Part shown: in pieces, positions 49,374 through 58,249 of the stretch
How positions within the stretch are numbered: the stretch's first letter is position 1
Layout of the letters: each line of letters begins with the position of its first letter
DNA from: Kyrpidia spormannii
Lineage (GTDB): Bacteria; Bacillota; Bacilli; Kyrpidiales; Kyrpidiaceae
Reading direction: 5' to 3'
Assembly: GCF_002804065.1 (NCBI RefSeq)
Contig: NZ_CP024955.1
Coordinates: forward strand, 806,001 to 870,000
Length of the DNA stretch: 64,000 nucleotides
The notes under the pieces: model-generated
Told to the model about the DNA's origin: nothing
Seen by the model: only the letters and a program-made list of their open reading frames with translations
The model's database searches: none
Position numbers and translations under genes: made by a program

Positions 49374-50612
49374 TTGGAGCCATCAATCGTCAAAGAAGAG
49401 ATCCTTCGCCCGCGTCGGGGAATTCTCGCCCTGGTCTTGGGCGGTTTAACGGGGCTGGGGCCTTTCACCGTGGACATGTATCTGCCATCGCTGCCGGTGT
49501 TGGCGGAGGATTTTCGTGTGGGGGCGTCGACGGTCCAGTTGAGCCTCATGGCGTGTCTGTTGGGATTGGCCTCAGGACAACTGGTGGCAGGGCCCATCAG
49601 TGATGCCCGGGGGCGCCGGGGCCCGGTCCTCGTCGGTCTGTTGATCTACGCGCTGGCGTCGGTGATGGCAGCTTGGGTGGGGCGGATCGAGGGGTTCATT
49701 GCTCTGCGGTTTGTGCAGGGGATGGCGGGGTCGGCGGGAATCGTCATCGCCCGGGCCATTGCCCGGGACCACTTCGAAGGGCCGGAATTGACACGGTTTT
49801 TCGCCTTGCTGATGGTGGTGAACGGGGCGGCCCCGGTGTTGGCCCCGGTCATAGGCGGGCAGATCCTCCGGGTGACCTCCTGGCGCGGGGTGTTCCTGGT
49901 TCTGGGGGGACTGGGCATTCTTCTTTGGTTGACGGTGTGGGGGTTGCTTGCGGAAACTCATCCTCCTCACCGGCGGGTCCGGGGCGGCGTCCGGGCAACC
50001 ATCGGGACACTGGGTCAGTTGCTCAAAAATGCGGAGTTCCTGGGCTACGTATTGGCTCAGGGGTTCGCTTTTGCGGCCATGTTCAGTTATATCTCCGGTT
50101 CGTCCTTTGTTCTCCAACAGGAATACGGGGTGTCGGCCCAGGGGTTCAGCGCGGTTTTTGCCGTCAATGGCATCGGGATTGTTTTGTCCGGGCAGATCGC
50201 CGCCCGGGCGGCGGTCAGGTGGGGGGAGCGCCGGGTTCTGGGCGTTTCCCTGGTCGTGGCGGTGCTGGGCAGCCTATTGCTTCTCGGCGGGGTGATGGCC
50301 CGGGCGGGGTTAGCGTTGGTGCTTCCCACGCTGTTTGTGGCGATCGCAGTGGTGGGGGCGATCAGCACCATGTGCAGTTCCCTGGCTCTGCAGAACCACG
50401 GGAGAGTTGCCGGCAGTGCGGCGGCTTGGCTTGGGGTGAGCGGCCAGTTGATCGGCGGTTTAGTTACCCCCTTGGTCGGGCTGGGGCCCGGCCGCATTGC
50501 TATCACCATGGCGGGTTTGATCATGATGTGTCACCTGTTCGCCGCCGTGGTGTACAAGCTTCTGTCCAGTCGGCGGGCGGTGACGGATGAAACGGGGCAA
50601 GAGGGTGCTTAA
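49374..50612 (+). CDS. MFS drug efflux transporter, Bcr/CflA type
   Basis: About 413 residues with 12 membrane helices. Family signatures: FTVDMYLPSLPVLAEDF near the N-terminus, QLVAGPISDARGRRGPVL (motif A), RFVQGMAGSAGIVIARAIARD (motif B and the D of helix 4). Likely exports drugs or metabolites in exchange for protons. TTG start after GGGGGAGGATAGG at long spacing; an ATG 18 codons upstream is an alternative. Convergent with cydB. Confidence 0.88.
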   Translation: MEPSIVKEEILRPRRGILALVLGGLTGLGPFTVDMYLPSLPVLAEDFRVGASTVQLSLMACLLGLASGQLVAGPISDARGRRGPVLVGLLIYALASVMAAWVGRIEGFIALRFVQGMAGSAGIVIARAIARDHFEGPELTRFFALLMVVNGAAPVLAPVIGGQILRVTSWRGVFLVLGGLGILLWLTVWGLLAETHPPHRRVRGGVRATIGTLGQLLKNAEFLGYVLAQGFAFAAMFSYISGSSFVLQQEYGVSAQGFSAVFAVNGIGIVLSGQIAARAAVRWGERRVLGVSLVVAVLGSLLLLGGVMARAGLALVLPTLFVAIAVVGAISTMCSSLALQNHGRVAGSAAAWLGVSGQLIGGLVTPLVGLGPGRIAITMAGLIMMCHLFAAVVYKLLSSRRAVTDETGQEGA

Positions 50613-50688
50613 TGTTCGGTTGTTCGAACGTGCGGGAGGTGGTTGGTATCGTGAATTTTACCCAAATAGGCCCGGGAAGCAGCCCCCA

Positions 50689-51870
50689 TTAAAATCCCGG
50701 GTGATCCGGAGTTTCCGGATCCCAGGGGGCCGGCTCCGGCCGCTCCATGAACAGGCGCCAAAACCACACAAAGGCCGGGAAAAACAGAGCCAACCCGACC
50801 AAAAGCACCACGAGAAGGGTGCGAAACATGGCGGGCCCCGCAAAGGCTCCTTCTACCGTCAGGCTGGGGGCGAGAAGAAACGGCAGATGGGCGAGACCGT
50901 ATCCCCAGTGGGCAAAGGCGTACTGCAGAACGGCGAGCACCACCGCCCATCTGGCCGGGTGGCGCCACGCCTTCCATCCCGTGGTGGCAGTGGGATGTCG
51001 AGAGGGCATCCGGGCGCCCCGCTGTCCCGTTTGGGGTGCTTCTTCCTGAACTGAAGAAAACCCGGAGGCGGTTGTCTGGGGTTTGACCTCCTTGGAGTAC
51101 ACTCCCAGGAGGAGCCCCACCCCGAAAAAGCTGGCCAAAGAAGCGGCAAACCACGGCCACTGCTGAAGGAGCCGGGCGTGGATCCACGTCTGGGATGGGG
51201 GGAGCAGCCCCCAGACCCCGGCGGCGGCGATGAACATCACCGGGCCCAGCACCAGGGCGCGCCTGCGGTACCGCGCGAAGGCTGAACCCGCGCCACTGAC
51301 CCGGGCCAGGTCCGCCAATAGCAGCGCTGACAAAAAGAGCTCGCTGGTCAGGCCGAACACCAAGAACCCATAGGTGGCCGGGGAAGCCAAAAGCTCCGGA
51401 AGATCGAGCCAGAGAGCCCCTGCCCCGCCGCCTTTCACCCCTAACCCGTGGGACACGGGCAAAGTCAACACCAACAGCGCCGGGATCAACAGGCCCGTCC
51501 AGGCGGCCGCCACTTCCGTTCGCCGGCGATGAATTTCTGAAGTATGGCCGTAGACCAGAAACGTGCCGCGCACAGCCAACAAGATCAGGATCAACGATCC
51601 GGGAACGAGAAGCAGGACCCCGTAAGCATAGGCCGCCCCGGGGAAAAAGCCCACCAGGGCAACGGGGATGAGAACCAAGAATACATTGGTGACCTCCCAC
51701 AGAGGAGACACGTACCGCTCCGCCACCCATGCTCCTTGGCGCATGCCCCGGCGGGATTCCCACCACTCCCAAAACCCGGCGCCAAAATCAAAAGAAGCCC
51801 CCACGGCGTAGACGAGAATGGCCGCCCACAGCAGGGTGGCCGCCCACATGGATTCGGTCACGGCAGCCAC
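50689..51870 (-). CDS. cydB: Cytochrome bd-type oxidase subunit II (CydB)
   Basis: About 393 residues with eight to nine helices. The N-terminus AILVYAVGASFDFGAGFWEWW matches CydB (YxxxDGFDxG-type region, variant), followed by SPLWEVTNVFLVLIPVALVGFFP. It supports haem-site assembly of CydA in the quinol oxidase. GTG start overlapping the last codons of cydA by 13 bases. Sequence is divergent from E. coli CydB as expected for a CIO/short-Q-loop branch. Confidence 0.85.
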   Translation of the reverse strand: MAAVTESMWAATLLWAAILVYAVGASFDFGAGFWEWWESRRGMRQGAWVAERYVSPLWEVTNVFLVLIPVALVGFFPGAAYAYGVLLLVPGSLILILLAVRGTFLVYGHTSEIHRRRTEVAAAWTGLLIPALLVLTLPVSHGLGVKGGGAGALWLDLPELLASPATYGFLVFGLTSELFLSALLLADLARVSGAGSAFARYRRRALVLGPVMFIAAAGVWGLLPPSQTWIHARLLQQWPWFAASLASFFGVGLLLGVYSKEVKPQTTASGFSSVQEEAPQTGQRGARMPSRHPTATTGWKAWRHPARWAVVLAVLQYAFAHWGYGLAHLPFLLAPSLTVEGAFAGPAMFRTLLVVLLVGLALFFPAFVWFWRLFMERPEPAPWDPETPDHPGF

Positions 51871-53228
51871 GCCCCCTCTCTCACCGATCGAGGCGGAGCC
51901 CCGCCCCCTCCATCGTCAAAATCCACGGGATGGCGGCGAAAATACGCCCGAATCACCGTGGCGGTTCCCCAGGCCAGGACCGCGTACAGAGCGATGAAAA
52001 GGGCCGCGATCCAGGGGACCCCCGGGGTCGGGGTGACGGCGTCCGCCGTGCGGAGCAGCCCCGTCACCGTCCAGGGCTGGCGTCCAATTTCGTCAAACAC
52101 CCACCCCAGTTCAATTCCGATCACCGACAGCGGCCCACAACTCACCACCGGCCAGAGAAGCCACGGCGGGAATTCTCCCTTTCCCTTGCGTTCCCGCCCT
52201 GCCGCAACGGCCGCCGCCCCGGCCACCAGGAGACCCCACACTCCCACCGCCACCATGGCGTCAAAAATCCAGTGAACGAAAAGGGGAGGCCACTGATCCA
52301 CGGGAAAATCCAGCAATCCCTGAACCTTGCCGCTGAACCGCCCGGTGGCCAGCCAACTCAACCATCCCAGAAGCTGAATCCCGCCGATCACCTGGCCGCT
52401 GACCGGGTCCGGCCATCCCGCGATCACCAGGGGGGCGTGGGTCTGGGTGTGAAAGAGCCCCTCGGCCGCCGCCAATTTGATCGGTTGATGGGCGGCCAAG
52501 TGTTTTCCCGCCAAATCCCCGGCGATCACCGTCAACACCGTCATGATCCCCGCCACGCCCAGGCACAACATCATCGCCTTGCGGTGATAGGCGGCGGCCG
52601 TCGCCGATGGACTGCCCAGGAGTTGCTTGGCGGCGATGGCCGCGAGCACGAAGGCCACCGTCATGTAGGCGGAGACGAGCACATGGAACACCATGGTGGG
52701 AAAGGATGGATTGAACACGGCTTCCCAAGGGCGAACATCCATGGGCCGCCCCCCGTCGGGAACGAATCCCGCAGGGGTGTTCATGAACGCGTTCACATCG
52801 GTGATCAGGATCGCCGAAGCCCCGGCCCCAAGGGTGACGAGAAGCGCCGCCGCCAGCCGCCTCTTGTGGGAGATCCGGTCTCCGCCGTACACGTACACCG
52901 CCGTAAAAATCGCTTCCAAGAAGAACGCAAACACTTCGATGAGAAAGGGGGTGGAGATGATCTGGCCCACCAACTCCATGAACCGAGGCCACAGGAGGGT
53001 GAGCTGGACGGCCACAATGGTGCCGGAGACCACCCCCGCGGCAAGAAGCACCACAAACCCCCGGGTCCAGCGCTGGGCCAGCCGGGCGTACAGCTGGTCT
53101 TTGCGCCACAGGGCGGCGGTTTCCGCCAGGGCGATCATCAGCGGCATCCCCACCCCGAAGGTGGCGAAAATAATGTGAAATCCCAGGGATGTGGCCATGA
53201 GAATTCGCGCCCAGAGAAGATGTGACAT
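51858..53228 (-). CDS. cydA: Cytochrome bd-type oxidase subunit I (CydA)
   Basis: Quinol oxidase core, about 456 residues and nine helices. Haem ligands: His18 (SLGFHIIFATFG) and His182 (MVFHVLVSAYM); acidic pair Glu98/Glu105 in FLIEVFAFFLEAIF; GRQPWTV near the C-terminal third. The protein is shorter than E. coli CydA (about 520), indicating a short Q-loop, as in cyanide-insensitive oxidases. ATG with GGAGGAAAGGA upstream. Menaquinol is the probable donor (mqnE present). Divergent from the CydA-like/cytochrome c operon. Confidence 0.92.
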   Translation of the reverse strand: MSHLLWARILMATSLGFHIIFATFGVGMPLMIALAETAALWRKDQLYARLAQRWTRGFVVLLAAGVVSGTIVAVQLTLLWPRFMELVGQIISTPFLIEVFAFFLEAIFTAVYVYGGDRISHKRRLAAALLVTLGAGASAILITDVNAFMNTPAGFVPDGGRPMDVRPWEAVFNPSFPTMVFHVLVSAYMTVAFVLAAIAAKQLLGSPSATAAAYHRKAMMLCLGVAGIMTVLTVIAGDLAGKHLAAHQPIKLAAAEGLFHTQTHAPLVIAGWPDPVSGQVIGGIQLLGWLSWLATGRFSGKVQGLLDFPVDQWPPLFVHWIFDAMVAVGVWGLLVAGAAAVAAGRERKGKGEFPPWLLWPVVSCGPLSVIGIELGWVFDEIGRQPWTVTGLLRTADAVTPTPGVPWIAALFIALYAVLAWGTATVIRAYFRRHPVDFDDGGGGAPPRSVREGAWLP

Positions 53229-53558
53229 ACTGTCCTTTCCTCCCTTGCCCCATCGCCAGATACCCAATTCCCAACGTCACTGTGGATAGCCTGGGTTAGA
53301 CTTTGGCGCTCTATTCGGAGTCTCTCGATCCGACAAAATATCGTCAAAGATCGGGCCGGGAGCCGGCTTCGTGATAAATACAACAAACTGTCACACGCAG
53401 TCTCCCTTCCCCCCTTTACCCGACAATCCAGACGAATAAAATCGATGGTGAGAAATGTGTTATTTTATAACGATAAATAACACACGGGGGTGGTGACCGC
53501 GAAAAGGAGTGCGCAACTTTATCGTCTTTGTCCAGCCTGTACCTGGAGGTGACGTGGA
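53229..53558. other. Divergent control region between cydAB and the CydA-like operon
   Basis: 330 bases without a gene. It contains the AT-rich inverted repeat described separately, and segments such as TTTGACGATATTTT on the minus strand that may be promoter elements. No riboswitch recognised. Confidence 0.5.
53456..53484. promoter_or_regulatory. Perfect 10-bp inverted repeat, probable operator
   Basis: TGTGTTATTT and AAATAACACA, separated by 9 bases, centred about 90 bases before the TTG start of the CydA-like gene. The half-sites resemble neither a perfect Rex (TTGTGAA) nor Fnr (TGTGA) site but share the TGTG...CACA ends. Unusually AT-rich for the area, so conserved function is likely; the regulator is unknown. 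Confidence 0.55.
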
Positions 53559-54941
53559 TTGGAATTTCCTGTATTCACCCTGGACCAGTTCGGATCGGGG
53601 AGCTTGATTGCCCTGGTGGCCATTGTCCACGTACTGATCAGCCACGGGGCGGCCGTCGGTGGGTCGATCATGGTGGTGGCCCTTGAAACCTACGCCATGA
53701 AACACAAAGACCTGGAGATGGACGATTTTGCCCACCGGTTGTTAAAGTACTTCTTCGTGGTGACCACCGCCGTGGGGGCCCTTACAGGGGTGGGCATCTG
53801 GCTGACCACGGGGGTGGTCCAGCCGGCGGCCATCGGTTCGATGCTGCGGGTCTTTTTCTGGTTCTGGTTTACCGAGTGGATCGTTTTCGTGTCCGAAGTG
53901 GTCTTTATCCTCTTGTACTATTTCACCTGGCCAAAACTGACCGGGGCGAAAAAGGTACTCCACCGGAACATCGGCATTGCCTATGCGGTGTCCTCGTGGT
54001 TGACCATGACCTTGATCACCGGGATTCTGGCTTTTATGTTGACCCCCGGTGCGTGGTTATCGGACGGTTCCCGCTGGGACGCCTTCTTCAATCCCACCTA
54101 CTTGCCCTCTCTGGCCTTCCGCACCTTCTTGGCTTTGGCGTTGGCCTCGGGATTCACGATGCTCTATACCCAGATCACGGTCCGCAAAGCGGAGCTTCGG
54201 GCCCGGGTTTTGGGGGTGGCTTCTCGGGTGCTCGCCGGAGCCGGCGTGATGATGTTTCTCACCGGGTACTGGTATTACCAGTCCGTTCCCGGGGGGGGCC
54301 GGGCGCTTATTCAGTGGGCCACGGCCCTGTCGCCCCAGCAGTTTGATCTGATCAATTACGGCGGGATCTTTGTCGTCTTCCTGTTTGCGATGGTGGCGAT
54401 TTTTTACCCGATGCGCCTGGCGGCTTCGGGGAGGATCAACCGGGTGATCGGGGTGACGGCTTCGCTTTTGGTCATGGCTTTGGCGGTGTTTTATGTCGGG
54501 GAAATCGAAATGGTCCGGGAATCGATCCGCAAGCCCTACGTGATTTCCGGTTACATGTATGCCAACGGGATACGGGTGTCGGATGTGGAGCGGCTCAATA
54601 CGGAAGGGATTCTGCCCAACGCCCGGTTTTCGCCGATCCAACAGGTGACACCGGGACAGGAAATTGAGGCCGGTCGGGAGGTTTTTCGGCTGGAATGTCA
54701 GAGTTGCCACGTTTTGCACAATTTTGCCCGCCAGCGCCGGGATCTCGCCTTTCGGTTGCAGGGATGGAATGAGACGACCATTTACAATTACGTAAAAAAT
54801 CTGCATCAAGCCAGGGCCTTTATGCCTCCCTTTGTGGGGACGGATCAAGAGCTGCGGGCGCTCAGCAAGTTCCTCGCCACGGTGCCGACCCAGGGAACCA
54901 CGGCGACGGCCGGATCGCCCGCCGGTGGGATCCATGAGTAG
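53559..54941 (+). CDS. CydA-like membrane protein with C-terminal cytochrome c domain
   Basis: 460 residues: about nine hydrophobic helices homologous to CydA and then a soluble mono-haem c domain. CydA-like features: His24 in helix I, acidic pair Glu106/Glu113 in FTEWIVFVSEVVFILL, the WDAFFNPTYLPSLAFR block (WEAVFNPSFPTMVFH in the neighbouring CydA; Arg188 where haem-b558 His is found), and EIEMVRESIRKPYVISGYM replacing the GRQPW region. The C domain has Cys380-x2-Cys383-His384 and probable distal Met422 (ARAFMPPF). TTG start with GGAGGTGA upstream. Probably an oxygen reductase-like or quinol/cytochrome c oxidoreductase subunit; the redox partner is not known. Confidence 0.85.
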   Translation: MEFPVFTLDQFGSGSLIALVAIVHVLISHGAAVGGSIMVVALETYAMKHKDLEMDDFAHRLLKYFFVVTTAVGALTGVGIWLTTGVVQPAAIGSMLRVFFWFWFTEWIVFVSEVVFILLYYFTWPKLTGAKKVLHRNIGIAYAVSSWLTMTLITGILAFMLTPGAWLSDGSRWDAFFNPTYLPSLAFRTFLALALASGFTMLYTQITVRKAELRARVLGVASRVLAGAGVMMFLTGYWYYQSVPGGGRALIQWATALSPQQFDLINYGGIFVVFLFAMVAIFYPMRLAASGRINRVIGVTASLLVMALAVFYVGEIEMVRESIRKPYVISGYMYANGIRVSDVERLNTEGILPNARFSPIQQVTPGQEIEAGREVFRLECQSCHVLHNFARQRRDLAFRLQGWNETTIYNYVKNLHQARAFMPPFVGTDQELRALSKFLATVPTQGTTATAGSPAGGIHE

Positions 54942-54969
54942 CGCGGGCCGAGTTGGAAAGGAGTGAAAG

Positions 54970-56085
54970 ATGATGTCTCCCGTACCTCACGATTTGCCGA
55001 TCTCGATCCCGGGTTCCATTCCTTTTTTTACGGTCCTGCTCGTGGTGGGATTCGTGCTGCATATCGTGTTCGTGCTGCTGACGGTGTCTGGGGCCGTCAT
55101 GTCGGTGGTCACGGAAGCGGTGGGTCACGCGAAAAAAGATGGCCGTTACCTCGAGTTGGCCCAGCGGGTTCTCACGGCGACGTCCGTGAACAAGAGTCTG
55201 GCGGTGGTGCTCGGCGTGGCGCCGCTTTTGCTCGTCGGGGTCTTGTACACCCGGTTTTTCTATCCGCCCACTGTGATTCTCGGCGGCACCTGGCTGTCGG
55301 TGATCTGGCTTTTGATTCTCGGTTTTCTCTTGTTGTACGCCTATAAATTCTCCTGGGAGCGCCTTCAGGCCCGCCCGGGGGTGCACCTGCTGCTCGGTGT
55401 TCTCGGGACCATTCCCTTTTTGGTTGTGCCGATGATTTTTGTCGTCGTCATGGGGCTGATGCGCCGCCCGGATTTGTGGATGCAAACCCACAGTTTTGTC
55501 CAGGCGATGTTTTATCCCACGGTATGGCCCCGGTATCTGCATTTTATGGCGGCGACGGCGGTGTTCGGGGGCTTGTTGCCCATCTGGATCGCCTGGCGGC
55601 AAGAGCGGAAGGCGTCCCGGGAGAAGGGCGGAGTGACGCGGACTTCGCCCGAGGCGTCGGTGGCCGGATCGGAGACGGCGGCGGCCGCGGAAGCCCAGAC
55701 TGGAGGTGGTCTTGAAGGGGCGCTGGATTCACGATGGGCAACCGGCTACGGGCTGCGGTGGACGGGGGTTGCTTTACTCATTGAGGTGGTGCTCGGGCTG
55801 GTGGTTCTATTCACCATGCCGGGGTCGGTGCGGGGTCATTTTTTGGGAGGGTCGGCCTTCTCGACCTTGGGGTTTGCGGTGGGCGCGGCGGCGGTGGCCG
55901 CTGCCCTGGGCGTTGTGTACGCCGCTCGCCGGCATCCACGCCCCGGGCGGGTGTTGCGCAATCTCGGCATCGCCCTTTTCGTGGTGGTGCTCGCCATGGC
56001 CACGGTTCGGCTCCAGATTCGGGACGTGGAGATTTCGCCGTATACGGCGGCCTCACAGCCTTCGGGTCAAACCGCAGGTCCCTGA
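54970..56085 (+). CDS. Second CydA-like membrane subunit
   Basis: 371 residues, about eight to nine helices. His31 and Glu49 in GFVLHIVFVLLTVSG correspond by spacing (18) to His18/Glu36 of CydA; His191 in FYPTVWPRYLHFMAAT corresponds to CydA His182. The acidic pair of helix III is absent (VIWLLILGFLLLYAY). A charged Ala/Glu/Gly-rich linker at about 205-245 separates two halves. ATG after AAAGGAG, 28 bases behind the haem c subunit. I infer a heterodimer of paralogous CydA-like proteins, in place of a CydB. Confidence 0.75.
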   Translation: MMSPVPHDLPISIPGSIPFFTVLLVVGFVLHIVFVLLTVSGAVMSVVTEAVGHAKKDGRYLELAQRVLTATSVNKSLAVVLGVAPLLLVGVLYTRFFYPPTVILGGTWLSVIWLLILGFLLLYAYKFSWERLQARPGVHLLLGVLGTIPFLVVPMIFVVVMGLMRRPDLWMQTHSFVQAMFYPTVWPRYLHFMAATAVFGGLLPIWIAWRQERKASREKGGVTRTSPEASVAGSETAAAAEAQTGGGLEGALDSRWATGYGLRWTGVALLIEVVLGLVVLFTMPGSVRGHFLGGSAFSTLGFAVGAAAVAAALGVVYAARRHPRPGRVLRNLGIALFVVVLAMATVRLQIRDVEISPYTAASQPSGQTAGP

Positions 56086-56172
56086 TCAATCCCGGGTTTC
56101 ATGGGCCTGTCCGGCGTTGTGATATTGTGGTATACTTCACACAAAATCACCTCAAGGGGAGAGGAACGCCGG

Positions 56173-56775
56173 GTGCTGCCTGCGGAGCGACAGAAAAAGA
56201 TTCTGAGTTGGTTGCAACAGGAAGGACACTTGAAGATCTCGGATCTGAGCCGTCGCCTTCAGGTATCGGAGATGACGGTGCACCGGGATGTTCGGGTGTT
56301 GGTGGATCAAGGGCGGGTGGTGAAGACCTACGGGGGGATCTCCTTGGCGAGCCCCCCGGTCGATGCGCCGGGACGGGGCAGCAGCACTTGCGCCTATTGC
56401 CGCCGGCCGGTGGACGACCGCTTGTCGATGACGGCGAACCACGCCGATGGAAGCGTAGAAACGTACTGTTGTCCTCACTGCGCACTATTGGCTTGTGCCC
56501 AAGGACCCTCGCAGCCGCGCAGCTTGTTGGGCCGGGATTTTTTGCTCGGCCACACGGTGGGTGCAGCGGCGGGATGGTATGTCATGGGGGCGGACATACC
56601 CACACTGTGTTGTGAGCCCCAAGCCCTACTGTTCGGGGAACGGCAGGATGCCGAGCGATTCGTCCGGGGATTCGGGGGAGAGATTTTTGATTTTGACGAG
56701 GCGACCCGGGAGATTCAGCTGAGGATGAATCGCCCGCATACCGCCTGTTGCCATCAGGAGGCGGGCCGGGAGTAA
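56173..56775 (+). CDS. YcnK-like copper-sensing repressor (DeoR HTH + NosL-like domain)
   Basis: About 201 residues. N-terminal DeoR-type winged helix (ERQKKILSWLQQEGHLKISDLS, VSEMTVHRDVRVLVDQG, VVKTYGGI). C-terminal Cys-rich domain resembling NosL: CAYC, YCCPHC, then MGADIPTLCCEPQALLF and a late CC pair. Bacillus YcnK has the same architecture and represses copper uptake genes. GTG start after GGGGAGAGGA. Downstream of the haem operon, upstream of a lipoprotein gene; likely regulator of copper or respiratory genes nearby. Confidence 0.8.
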   Translation: MLPAERQKKILSWLQQEGHLKISDLSRRLQVSEMTVHRDVRVLVDQGRVVKTYGGISLASPPVDAPGRGSSTCAYCRRPVDDRLSMTANHADGSVETYCCPHCALLACAQGPSQPRSLLGRDFLLGHTVGAAAGWYVMGADIPTLCCEPQALLFGERQDAERFVRGFGGEIFDFDEATREIQLRMNRPHTACCHQEAGRE

Positions 56776-56910
56776 CCGGCCTGCCTCCGGCGTCGTTCAT
56801 ACAGTTGTTCATACAATTGCCACAAGTGTAGCTCAAATGGGCCAGTGAGTTGGAGGCTGGCGCTGTTGTATGATACCGGGGGTCAAGACTGAAGGAAGAG
56901 GTGCATGGGT

Positions 56911-57375
56911 ATGAAGCGTCGCTGGGCTTGGACGACGGTGTCCCTTTCCCTCGCCGCCGGGTTGGTGGCGGGTTGCGGACAGGCCGCCGCTCCGTCCCAA
57001 ACCGATCAGTCCCAGGGGAACCCAGGGTCATCCGCCTCACCCACAGAGATGAATATGGATCCGGGCATGACCATGGATCAACAGTTTGACATTGCCTTCT
57101 CCACCGATCCCCCCGGTCCCATAAAGGCGAATCAGCCCGTGAAGCTGATTGAAAAGGTGAGCAAGAAGGGTACGCCCATCAGTGGAGCTTACATTAAATT
57201 AGAGATCTGGAAAGACGGGGAGTCCAAGCACGAGCTGGTGGATGTGGTGGAAGGTCCCAGCGGCACCTACACGGTGGAAAAAAACTTTGACAAGCCAGGA
57301 CTCTACCATGTCACCCTCCACACCACAGCCCTGGGATTTCACGAAATGCCGACCAAAGACATTGAAGTGAAGTAG
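56911..57375 (+). CDS. YtkA/FixH-like lipoprotein
   Basis: About 154 residues. Lipobox LVAGC (Cys about 22), a Met-rich linker (MNMDPGMTMD) that may bind copper, and an Ig-like beta domain (IAFSTDPPGPIKANQPV ... YHVTLHTTALGFHEMPTKDIEV) of the FixH/YtkA group. The ATG two codons into the apparent frame is preferred because GAGG lies 7 bases from it. Likely extracytoplasmic copper handling for the terminal oxidases. Confidence 0.75.
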   Translation: MKRRWAWTTVSLSLAAGLVAGCGQAAAPSQTDQSQGNPGSSASPTEMNMDPGMTMDQQFDIAFSTDPPGPIKANQPVKLIEKVSKKGTPISGAYIKLEIWKDGESKHELVDVVEGPSGTYTVEKNFDKPGLYHVTLHTTALGFHEMPTKDIEVK

Positions 57376-57636
57376 TCGTTCACTGGTTTTGGGGAAGAAC
57401 CACCAACCTTCCGGCGGGGGCCGGGCGACGCAAAGCCGTTGCGGTTTGCTCCAAAGGATCAGGTCGGGTGGAACTTCCGAATCGGCGAGGGGCGGGCCGC
57501 GGGGCGAACCTGGTTCGGTGGCTGGCGGGAGCCATTTGTGAAGGAATTCTGACAGGGGCATGTAGGACGCTTGACCCCACTGGGGTTTCCGGCCAGAATG
57601 AAGGTGACATGTCGGATAGGAAAGCGTGGGAGAAGA

Positions 57637-58098
57637 TTGACTGCAGAAATCGTCGCTTATCTAAACGAAGCGTTCATGCTCGTCAGCGCCGGTTCGGCGG
57701 CCGTCGGTTGGTATTTGATTCGGAGAGGACGTCGGGAGGCCCACCGAAGGGCCATGTTAACGAGTGTCGTGCTGGCCGCGGCTTTTTTTCTGAGCTATGT
57801 CCTCAAGACGATCTTCATCGGGGACACCAGTTTCGGGGGACCGGCCCAGTGGCGGGAGCCCTACCAAATCTTTCTCCAGGCCCACTCGGTTCTTGCCACC
57901 GTGGCCGCCGTGCTCGGGATCGTGGCGTTGCGCTATGCGTTCAAAAGCCGATTTGCTTCCCATAAGCGGATCGGCCCTTGGACGGTCACGATTTGGCTGA
58001 TCACGGCGGCCACTGGTCTGATGGTGTTCTTATTGTTGTATGTGATTTACGAGCCGGGACCCACGAGAAACATGTTTCGCACTTGGCTCGGTTTCTAG
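57637..58098 (+). CDS. DUF420 membrane protein (YozB/CtaM-like)
   Basis: About 153 residues with four membrane helices. Conserved His/Lys-containing loops (AHRRAMLTS, SYVLKTIFIGDTSF, LQAHSVLATVAA, KRIGPWTVTIWL) match DUF420 proteins; CtaM of Staphylococcus is needed for maturation of a haem-copper oxidase. TTG start with GGGAGAAG just upstream; an ATG 13 codons earlier has no ribosome site. The partner oxidase is not in the window. Confidence 0.8.
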   Translation: MTAEIVAYLNEAFMLVSAGSAAVGWYLIRRGRREAHRRAMLTSVVLAAAFFLSYVLKTIFIGDTSFGGPAQWREPYQIFLQAHSVLATVAAVLGIVALRYAFKSRFASHKRIGPWTVTIWLITAATGLMVFLLLYVIYEPGPTRNMFRTWLGF

Positions 58099-58249
58099 GC
58101 GTCAGGGTCCGAACAACTGGTCGGCTCGGCCTGTCAGGGCGCTGAGGTCGCTGCGGGATTGCGGTAGCGAAGAATCGACCGGGTACATGTGGGGATCGCT
58201 TGGCCTCCCGGGGGAGTCGTCAGAAAACTGGGGGGAAGAGGGGAGTGGA

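Follow-up and report, generated by a model that had tools for sequence, protein, structure and literature searches.

What does the perfect inverted repeat between the two oxidase gene sets of this locus serve, and to which of the two does it belong? The window, that is, the whole 64,000-nucleotide stretch of DNA that was analyzed, carries TGTGTTATTT-N9-AAATAACACA at 53456-53484, exactly as the original prediction had described it, and 100 dinucleotide shuffles of the window gave an expectation of 0 for such a repeat. It had also been said to stand out as AT-rich, and the data agreed: 23 of its 29 bases are A or T, and only 20 of the approximately 64,000 29-mers in the window, counting the repeat itself and those overlapping it, are equally or more A/T-rich. 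Perfect inverted repeats with arms of at least 10 bases and loops of 3 to 20 were found at six distinct places in the window (11 rows), and by our reading of these rows the stems at all places except 53456-53484 are GC-rich or terminator-like. The whole genome of 3,352,175 bases contains a single copy of the repeat, and no further copies were found in it when up to three mismatches were allowed. The half-site pattern TGT[T/G]A-N15-T[A/C]ACA had one genomic match, at 53458-53482, and the reversed control pattern had two. Three half-sites lie within 53458-53482: TGTTA, an imperfect reversed TAACG at 10 bp, and TAACA at 20 bp, the imperfect middle one preceding the right one by 10 bp. The features of the locus are listed in Table 1.

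Table 1. Genes and sites around the inverted repeat (window positions; operators and promoter are predicted)
Feature	Position	Strand	Basis or remark
cydB, neighbour	50689..51870	-	Pfam
cydA of divergent canonical bd oxidase, neighbour	51858..53228	-	No such gene in congener G001
Probable distal operator, CGTGATAAATACAACAAACTGTCACA	53370..53395	no strand	CAACA, and TCACA 10 bp further; left half-site imperfect
Possible sigma-A promoter, TTTACC-N16-TAAAAT	53415..53442	+	Weak match: 1 found, shuffle mean 0.4
Reported perfect inverted repeat, TGTGTTATTT-N9-AAATAACACA	53456..53484	no strand	Read from sequence
Predicted proximal operator core, TGTTA-N15-TAACA	53458..53482	no strand	Conservation in G003; genome-unique pattern
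OrcA (name given here), CydA-like subunit with C-terminal c-type haem domain	53559..54941	+	Start TTG; 460 aa
OrcB (name given here), second CydA-like subunit	54970..56085	+	Pfam Cyt_bd_oxida_I 36.9 bits, cut-off 26.2
Probable operator before ycnK-like gene, TGTGATATTGTGGTATACTTCACA	56118..56141	no strand	Over possible -10 TATACT; offset 19
YcnK-like regulator, DeoR-type HTH and NosL-like domain	56173..56775	+	Likely start GTG 56173, not ATG 56101
YtkA-domain protein	56905..57375	+	Pfam YtkA 40.9 bits, cut-off 25.9
DUF420 membrane protein, presumably CtaM/YozB-like	57571..58098	+	Pfam DUF420 124.1 bits

The genes to the right of the repeat were compared with known oxidases. OrcA itself has no Pfam bd match; its sequence could be aligned to the product of the divergent cydA at an E of 6e-10 and, at 3.8e-8, to the bd structure from Geobacillus, and bd oxidases ranked first among the structures matching its model (mean pLDDT 80.9), with 5doq_A as the best match (E 4.7e-7). 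Both target genes belong to the cytochrome bd superfamily and show the CydA-like fold, OrcB by Pfam and OrcA by its model and sequence match. The Q-loop motif GRQPW marks the CydA subunit of canonical quinol-oxidising CydAB. This motif was present in the divergent CydA (GWVFDEIGRQPW) and absent when looked for in OrcA, which by this mark is not the CydA of a canonical quinol-oxidising enzyme.

The third gene of the rightward operon encodes the regulator. Its N-terminus matched Pfam HTH_DeoR with 54.9 bits (cut-off 21), which identifies a DeoR-type HTH, and its C-terminus matched Pfam NosL with 24 bits, barely at the cut-off. The copper chaperone NosL (7og7, E 1.3e-6) was the top Foldseek match of its AlphaFold model (mean pLDDT 86.9), and the cysteines of the NosL-like domain, in the motifs CxxC, CCxHC and CC, were invariant among 17 aligned members of the ycnK-like family. 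The ycnK-like reading frame is probably shorter than its longest reading, judging from its homologues; these begin at MLP, which corresponds to GTG 56173, and a candidate operator falls inside the extra stretch, 56101-56172.

Genes of the ycnK-like family were collected across the class; of its 398 genomes examined, 36 had a match at E <= 1e-10. A search at the level of the phylum matched 7 of 398 genomes; one new genome (G582) matched over most of the query and four others over the HTH only. Around the 39 collected genes, YtkA clusters were found in 16 loci, CopC-CopD in 12 and SCO1 in 10, where the genes inside the fetched stretch were counted and clusters were named by their representatives. 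At least one gene of the YtkA, CopC/CopD or SCO1 type was present in 26 of the 39 loci, and in 24 of the 36 that lie outside the family of this genome. The regulator of this window has no CopC/CopD (ycnJ) gene as its neighbour, and YtkA and DUF420 genes stand there instead; with 12 of 39 loci, such a neighbour is not universal among the homologues. CopD was not found in this genome, which contains four COX1 genes.

Conservation was examined in relatives. In the congener G001, whose OrcA is 98% identical, the core, the rightward operon and the regulator are all present, with no difference in the 25 bases of the core, TGTTATTTTATAACGATAAATAACA, but with the two outermost pairs of the repeat (TG/CA) broken. 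In G003, a genome of the same family whose OrcA is 73% identical, the core reads TGTTAGTTTATATCAATATCTAACA; one paired change, the only one known, replaces T-A with G-C, the next inner pair is broken, and TGTTA(G)...(C)TAACA is kept with some of the linker. Identity with G003 was 20 of 25 bases in the core compared with 44 of 120 in the flanks (Fisher p 7e-5), for an arrangement that is known here from three genomes, two of them congeners. The perfect 10-bp arms extend beyond what is conserved, since their outer pairs are broken in G001; the conserved core, TGTTA-N15-TAACA at 53458-53482, is shorter than they imply. The original prediction had named absence of the repeat from close relatives as evidence against it; the core persists in G001 and G003, the two relatives with the operon. 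G003 further shares GGGGGTGG, which directly follows the repeat at 53486-53493, although most of that flank is not conserved. The dyad was found in none of six orcA upstream regions from relatives without a ycnK-like neighbour, one of them upstream of the second orcA of G003, a comparison that is a weak control because the OrcA proteins of those relatives are only 31-47% identical.

The divergent cydAB genes behaved differently. No open reading frame of the G001 locus matched cydAB, and the nearest CydA elsewhere in G001 was 32% identical to the product of the window's cydA; the window's own genome (G000) carries a second CydA as well, 31% identical. Homology to G001 begins at about 53341, between cydA and the repeat. 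The stretch 50689-53340, which holds cydAB and the region upstream of it, is missing from that congener, where approximately 1.2 kb without a cydAB match separates an MFS gene from the conserved orcA upstream region. In a third, less complete congener (G002, 86%), neither gene was found. Because G001 keeps the repeat and the operon without cydAB, we assigned the repeat to the rightward operon. On sequence comparison, cydAB is a lineage-specific neighbour outside the conserved unit. The original prediction had placed the repeat in a control region of two oxidase operons, which describes its position in this genome but not in G001, and control of the divergent cydAB is unsupported, since G001, where the repeat is retained, lacks these genes.

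The half-sites were then compared with those of other ycnK-like promoters. Motifs were learnt from 34 ycnK-like upstream regions, none of them from the three genomes in the family of the window. The first run caught a ribosome-binding-site-like sequence, and the last 18 bases were then masked; in the second run the number of sites was limited, and the sites found reached that limit. The learnt motifs, TTAT[A/C]ACA (W=8) and TGT[T/G]AAAATATG (W=12), show the same half-site as the repeat. On either strand TGT[TG]A occurred 87 times, compared with 37.9 +/- 5.1 in shuffles, and was present in 30 of the 34 regions and absent from four.

Spacing was counted in 30 non-redundant regions, after the redundant L074, L079, L082 and L083 had been dropped and L053-L055, which belong to the family of the window itself, excluded. 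There were 8 strict direct pairs at 10 bp, compared with 0.11 expected, and strict convergent pairs numbered 4 at 10 bp and 3 at 20 bp, compared with 0.07 expected each. With loose half-sites, which were defined after the sequences had been looked at, there were 23 direct pairs at 10 bp (0.48 expected) and 13 and 10 convergent pairs at 10 bp (0.25) and 20 bp (0.27), respectively. A strictly phased pair was found in 15 of the 30 regions and missing in 15, compared with 0.64% of 469 overlapping AT-matched windows drawn from 22 of the 30 loci, the offsets counted being those taken from the spacing count of the same 30 regions. In these regions strict convergent half-site pairs also exceeded divergent ones (24 vs 6). 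The repeat shows the 20-bp convergent spacing seen in other ycnK-like promoters, and half-sites in multiples of 10 bp may be a general site rule for YcnK-like proteins. Upstream of two of three loci in the genus g16, where the ycnK-like gene precedes a CopC-CopD gene, TGTGA, CAACA and TCACA lie at 0, 10 and 20 bp, with TATCA at 30; the third locus has TGTTG in first place. No half-sites were found in the 145 bases upstream of either of the distant ycnK-like genes L108 and L113 in G582, both of which were outside the training set.

When site pairs were ranked over the 64-kb window, the top pair under the W=12 model was 56118-56141, in the promoter of the regulator gene itself, followed by the repeat (53458); under the W=8 model this promoter again led and the repeat came 8th, and neither was among the top 8 of the W=10 model. 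The half-sites of the top-ranked pair are offset by 19 bp, not 20. This site is also present in G001 and partly in G003, where a direct pair spaced by 10 bp stands before the ycnK-like gene. At the probable distal operator, 53370-53395, the left half-site is an imperfect CGTGA, offset by 21. The right half-sites of the distal and proximal sites are 87 bp apart in the window and in G001 alike, and G003 has a second site, TGTTA-N15-TCACA, 87 bp upstream of its first, and so two TGTTA-N15-TMACA sites. The possible sigma-A promoter, a weak match, would place the proximal operator just past the transcription start. Looking for more copies ahead of respiratory genes, as the original prediction proposed, yielded none with the strict pattern and two variants, 53370-53395 and 56118-56141.

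Wider patterns were searched in the genome. TGTTA-N10-20-TAACA had 3 sites, compared with 24 for the reversed control pattern. The two besides the repeat read TGTTAAC-N16-GTTAACA (L092 1501-1530 and L091 1501-1530, at genome 2583329 and 1483902, respectively); both look like biotin-repressor boxes, and one adjoins a bioA-like gene (BioA named by eye). All 11 sites of TGTGA-N12-20-TCACA lie within called open reading frames, and only 56118 among them would sit in a promoter, provided that GTG 56173 is the start codon of the ycnK-like gene. Tandem TGTKA-N5-TGTKA, in its strict form the commonest arrangement elsewhere, occurs once in the genome and is absent from the window.

Taken together, the repeat is probably a promoter-proximal operator of the orcA-orcB-ycnK-like operon, which we predict to be bound by the co-encoded YcnK-like DeoR/NosL regulator. 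That it is a regulator-binding site, as originally predicted, is well supported. YcnK, which the prediction had named only among its suggested checks, fits best by half-site, phasing and co-encoded regulator. From the sequence, its conservation, the half-sites and phasing common to ycnK-like promoters and the domains of the protein, we infer binding, autoregulation, repression, a copper signal and the outcome under copper shortage. The regulator would read TGT[T/G]A half-sites on one helix face, in multiples of approximately 10 bp, at one operator set made up of 53458-53482, the distal site 87 bp upstream and the site before its own gene. With copper present, it would occupy 53458-53482, 53370-53395 and 56118-56141 and repress; with copper lost, it would leave, which would allow synthesis of the bd-family complex and of copper-handling proteins. 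Under copper shortage this complex, without a need for copper, could work beside the haem-copper oxidases. OrcAB as a putative copper-free oxidase would be useful then because the genome has four COX1 genes. The arrangement points to a possible induction of copper-free respiration in copper shortage; copper is assumed to be the signal on the model of B. subtilis YcnK, a copper-dependent repressor. The full reading is offered tentatively: a copper-sensing repressor would directly control a copper-free bd-superfamily oxidase through a phased triple half-site, so that haem-copper respiration is swapped for a cytochrome-c-linked bd-type enzyme and copper-delivery proteins are raised.

If the signal were not copper, and the YcnK-like operator answered to another metal or to a thiol or redox state sensed through the cysteines, the copper-sparing account would be wrong. 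The copper link is weaker here than in Bacillus because CopD is absent from the genome and because no YtkA or DUF420 genes were found next to the operon in G003, where the regulator stands amid bd-family genes. In G003 (L046 9211-10212) a further CydA-like gene, 30% identical to OrcB, follows the ycnK-like gene, at the place where the window has YtkA. However, the NosL-like fold and the cysteines are common to homologues beside copper genes, and YtkA and DUF420 adjoin the regulator in this genome, so we consider a signal other than copper unlikely, while giving it serious weight.

It is improbable that the repeat binds a redox or oxygen regulator of the Rex, Fnr or Crp type with both oxidase operons under its control. 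The Rex consensi are TTGTGAA-N4-TTCACAA and TTGTTAA-N4-TTAACAA, and that of Fnr/Crp is TGTGA-N6-TCACA. The repeat sits between respiratory operons, half-sites of the form TGTGA/TGTTA are similar to Rex and Crp/Fnr half-sites, and before the ycnK-like gene 56126-56141 matches TGTGA-N6-TCACA with one mismatch and 56125-56142 is within three mismatches of the Rex consensus. However, none of the three consensi matched on the repeat, with up to three mismatches allowed for Rex and up to two for Fnr/Crp; the half-sites of the repeat are offset by 20 bp, start to start, compared with 11, and cydAB is not conserved beside it. The redox regulator proposed in the original prediction is unsupported at the repeat. 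Six places in the window (1108, 27773, 28132, 30570, 40337 and 60931) are within three mismatches of TTGTTAA-N4-TTAACAA, compared with 0.5 expected from shuffles, and none of them is near the repeat.

Still less probable is an RNA hairpin in the 5' leader, acting as a stabiliser or attenuator. The window sequence folds into a 10-bp stem and one change in G003 preserves pairing, but the z value was only -0.97, the stem is not the predicted fold in G001 and G003, and no Rfam match was found in 50000-58200. No terminator-like site was found in 53226-53580, and the reading of the repeat as a terminator was rejected. A functionless AT-rich palindrome arising by chance, as might be expected in AT-rich promoter regions, is hardly credible for a repeat that is unique in the genome, is kept in G003 above its flanks and matches an independently learnt site.

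If the full copper reading is true, the locus would hold a dedicated copper-sparing respiratory switch, in which the YcnK operator code has been moved onto an oxidase operon. It offers a specific, testable link between copper status and terminal oxidase choice in a probably thermophilic, hydrogen-oxidising Firmicute, and the site rule (TGT[T/G]A half-sites, 10-bp phase) can be used to seek targets of YcnK-like regulators in other Bacilli. No report of the pairing of a YcnK-like site with a bd-like oxidase was found among the best matches in the openly licensed literature.

The E. coli DeoR operator is a 16-bp palindrome, TGTTAGAA-TTCTAACA. Its half-site, TGTTA[G/T], and the HTH class are the same as here, but its half-sites are offset by 11, compared with 20 bp in the repeat, and the sensor domain is unrelated. 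Among oxidases, the OR-C group carries a fused c-type haem domain. Like OrcA and OrcB, the OR-N/OR-C CydAA' enzymes have two CydA-like subunits, and the accessible parts of the reports consider cytochrome c use likely and mention no YcnK-like regulator (PMC10839748, PMC12342949); experimental confirmation of related CydAA' complexes is said there to be lacking (PMC10839748). In Mycobacterium tuberculosis, withholding copper raises the expression of the bd genes, and cytochrome bd sustains respiration when the haem-copper oxidase fails; the enzyme differs in being a canonical CydAB, and no co-encoded copper repressor is mentioned in the accessible part of that report (PMC12140626). A parallel in arrangement is CioR-cioRAB of Chromobacterium violaceum, where a bd oxidase operon is likewise repressed by a regulator encoded within it. 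Unlike here, however, CioR belongs to the MarR family and its target is a canonical, cyanide-induced CioAB; CioR binding is disrupted by iron and zinc, and the sections available mention no copper effect (PMC11837568).

The closest known system is that of B. subtilis, where YcnK is described, in the parts of the reports available, as a copper-dependent repressor of the copper-uptake operon ycnKJI (PMC8424229, PMC13344008), which is up under copper starvation according to the portion available of another (PMC12154828). The target in this window is a bd-superfamily operon instead, with the regulator in third place and CopD absent from the genome, and the repeat is without the fourth half-site of the g16-type YcnK sites. 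The regulator has the same two domains as Bacillus YcnK, and the triple TGTGA, CAACA and TCACA in two of the three g16 upstream regions matches the half-site positions of the repeat, which appears to be a site of known type at a new kind of target.
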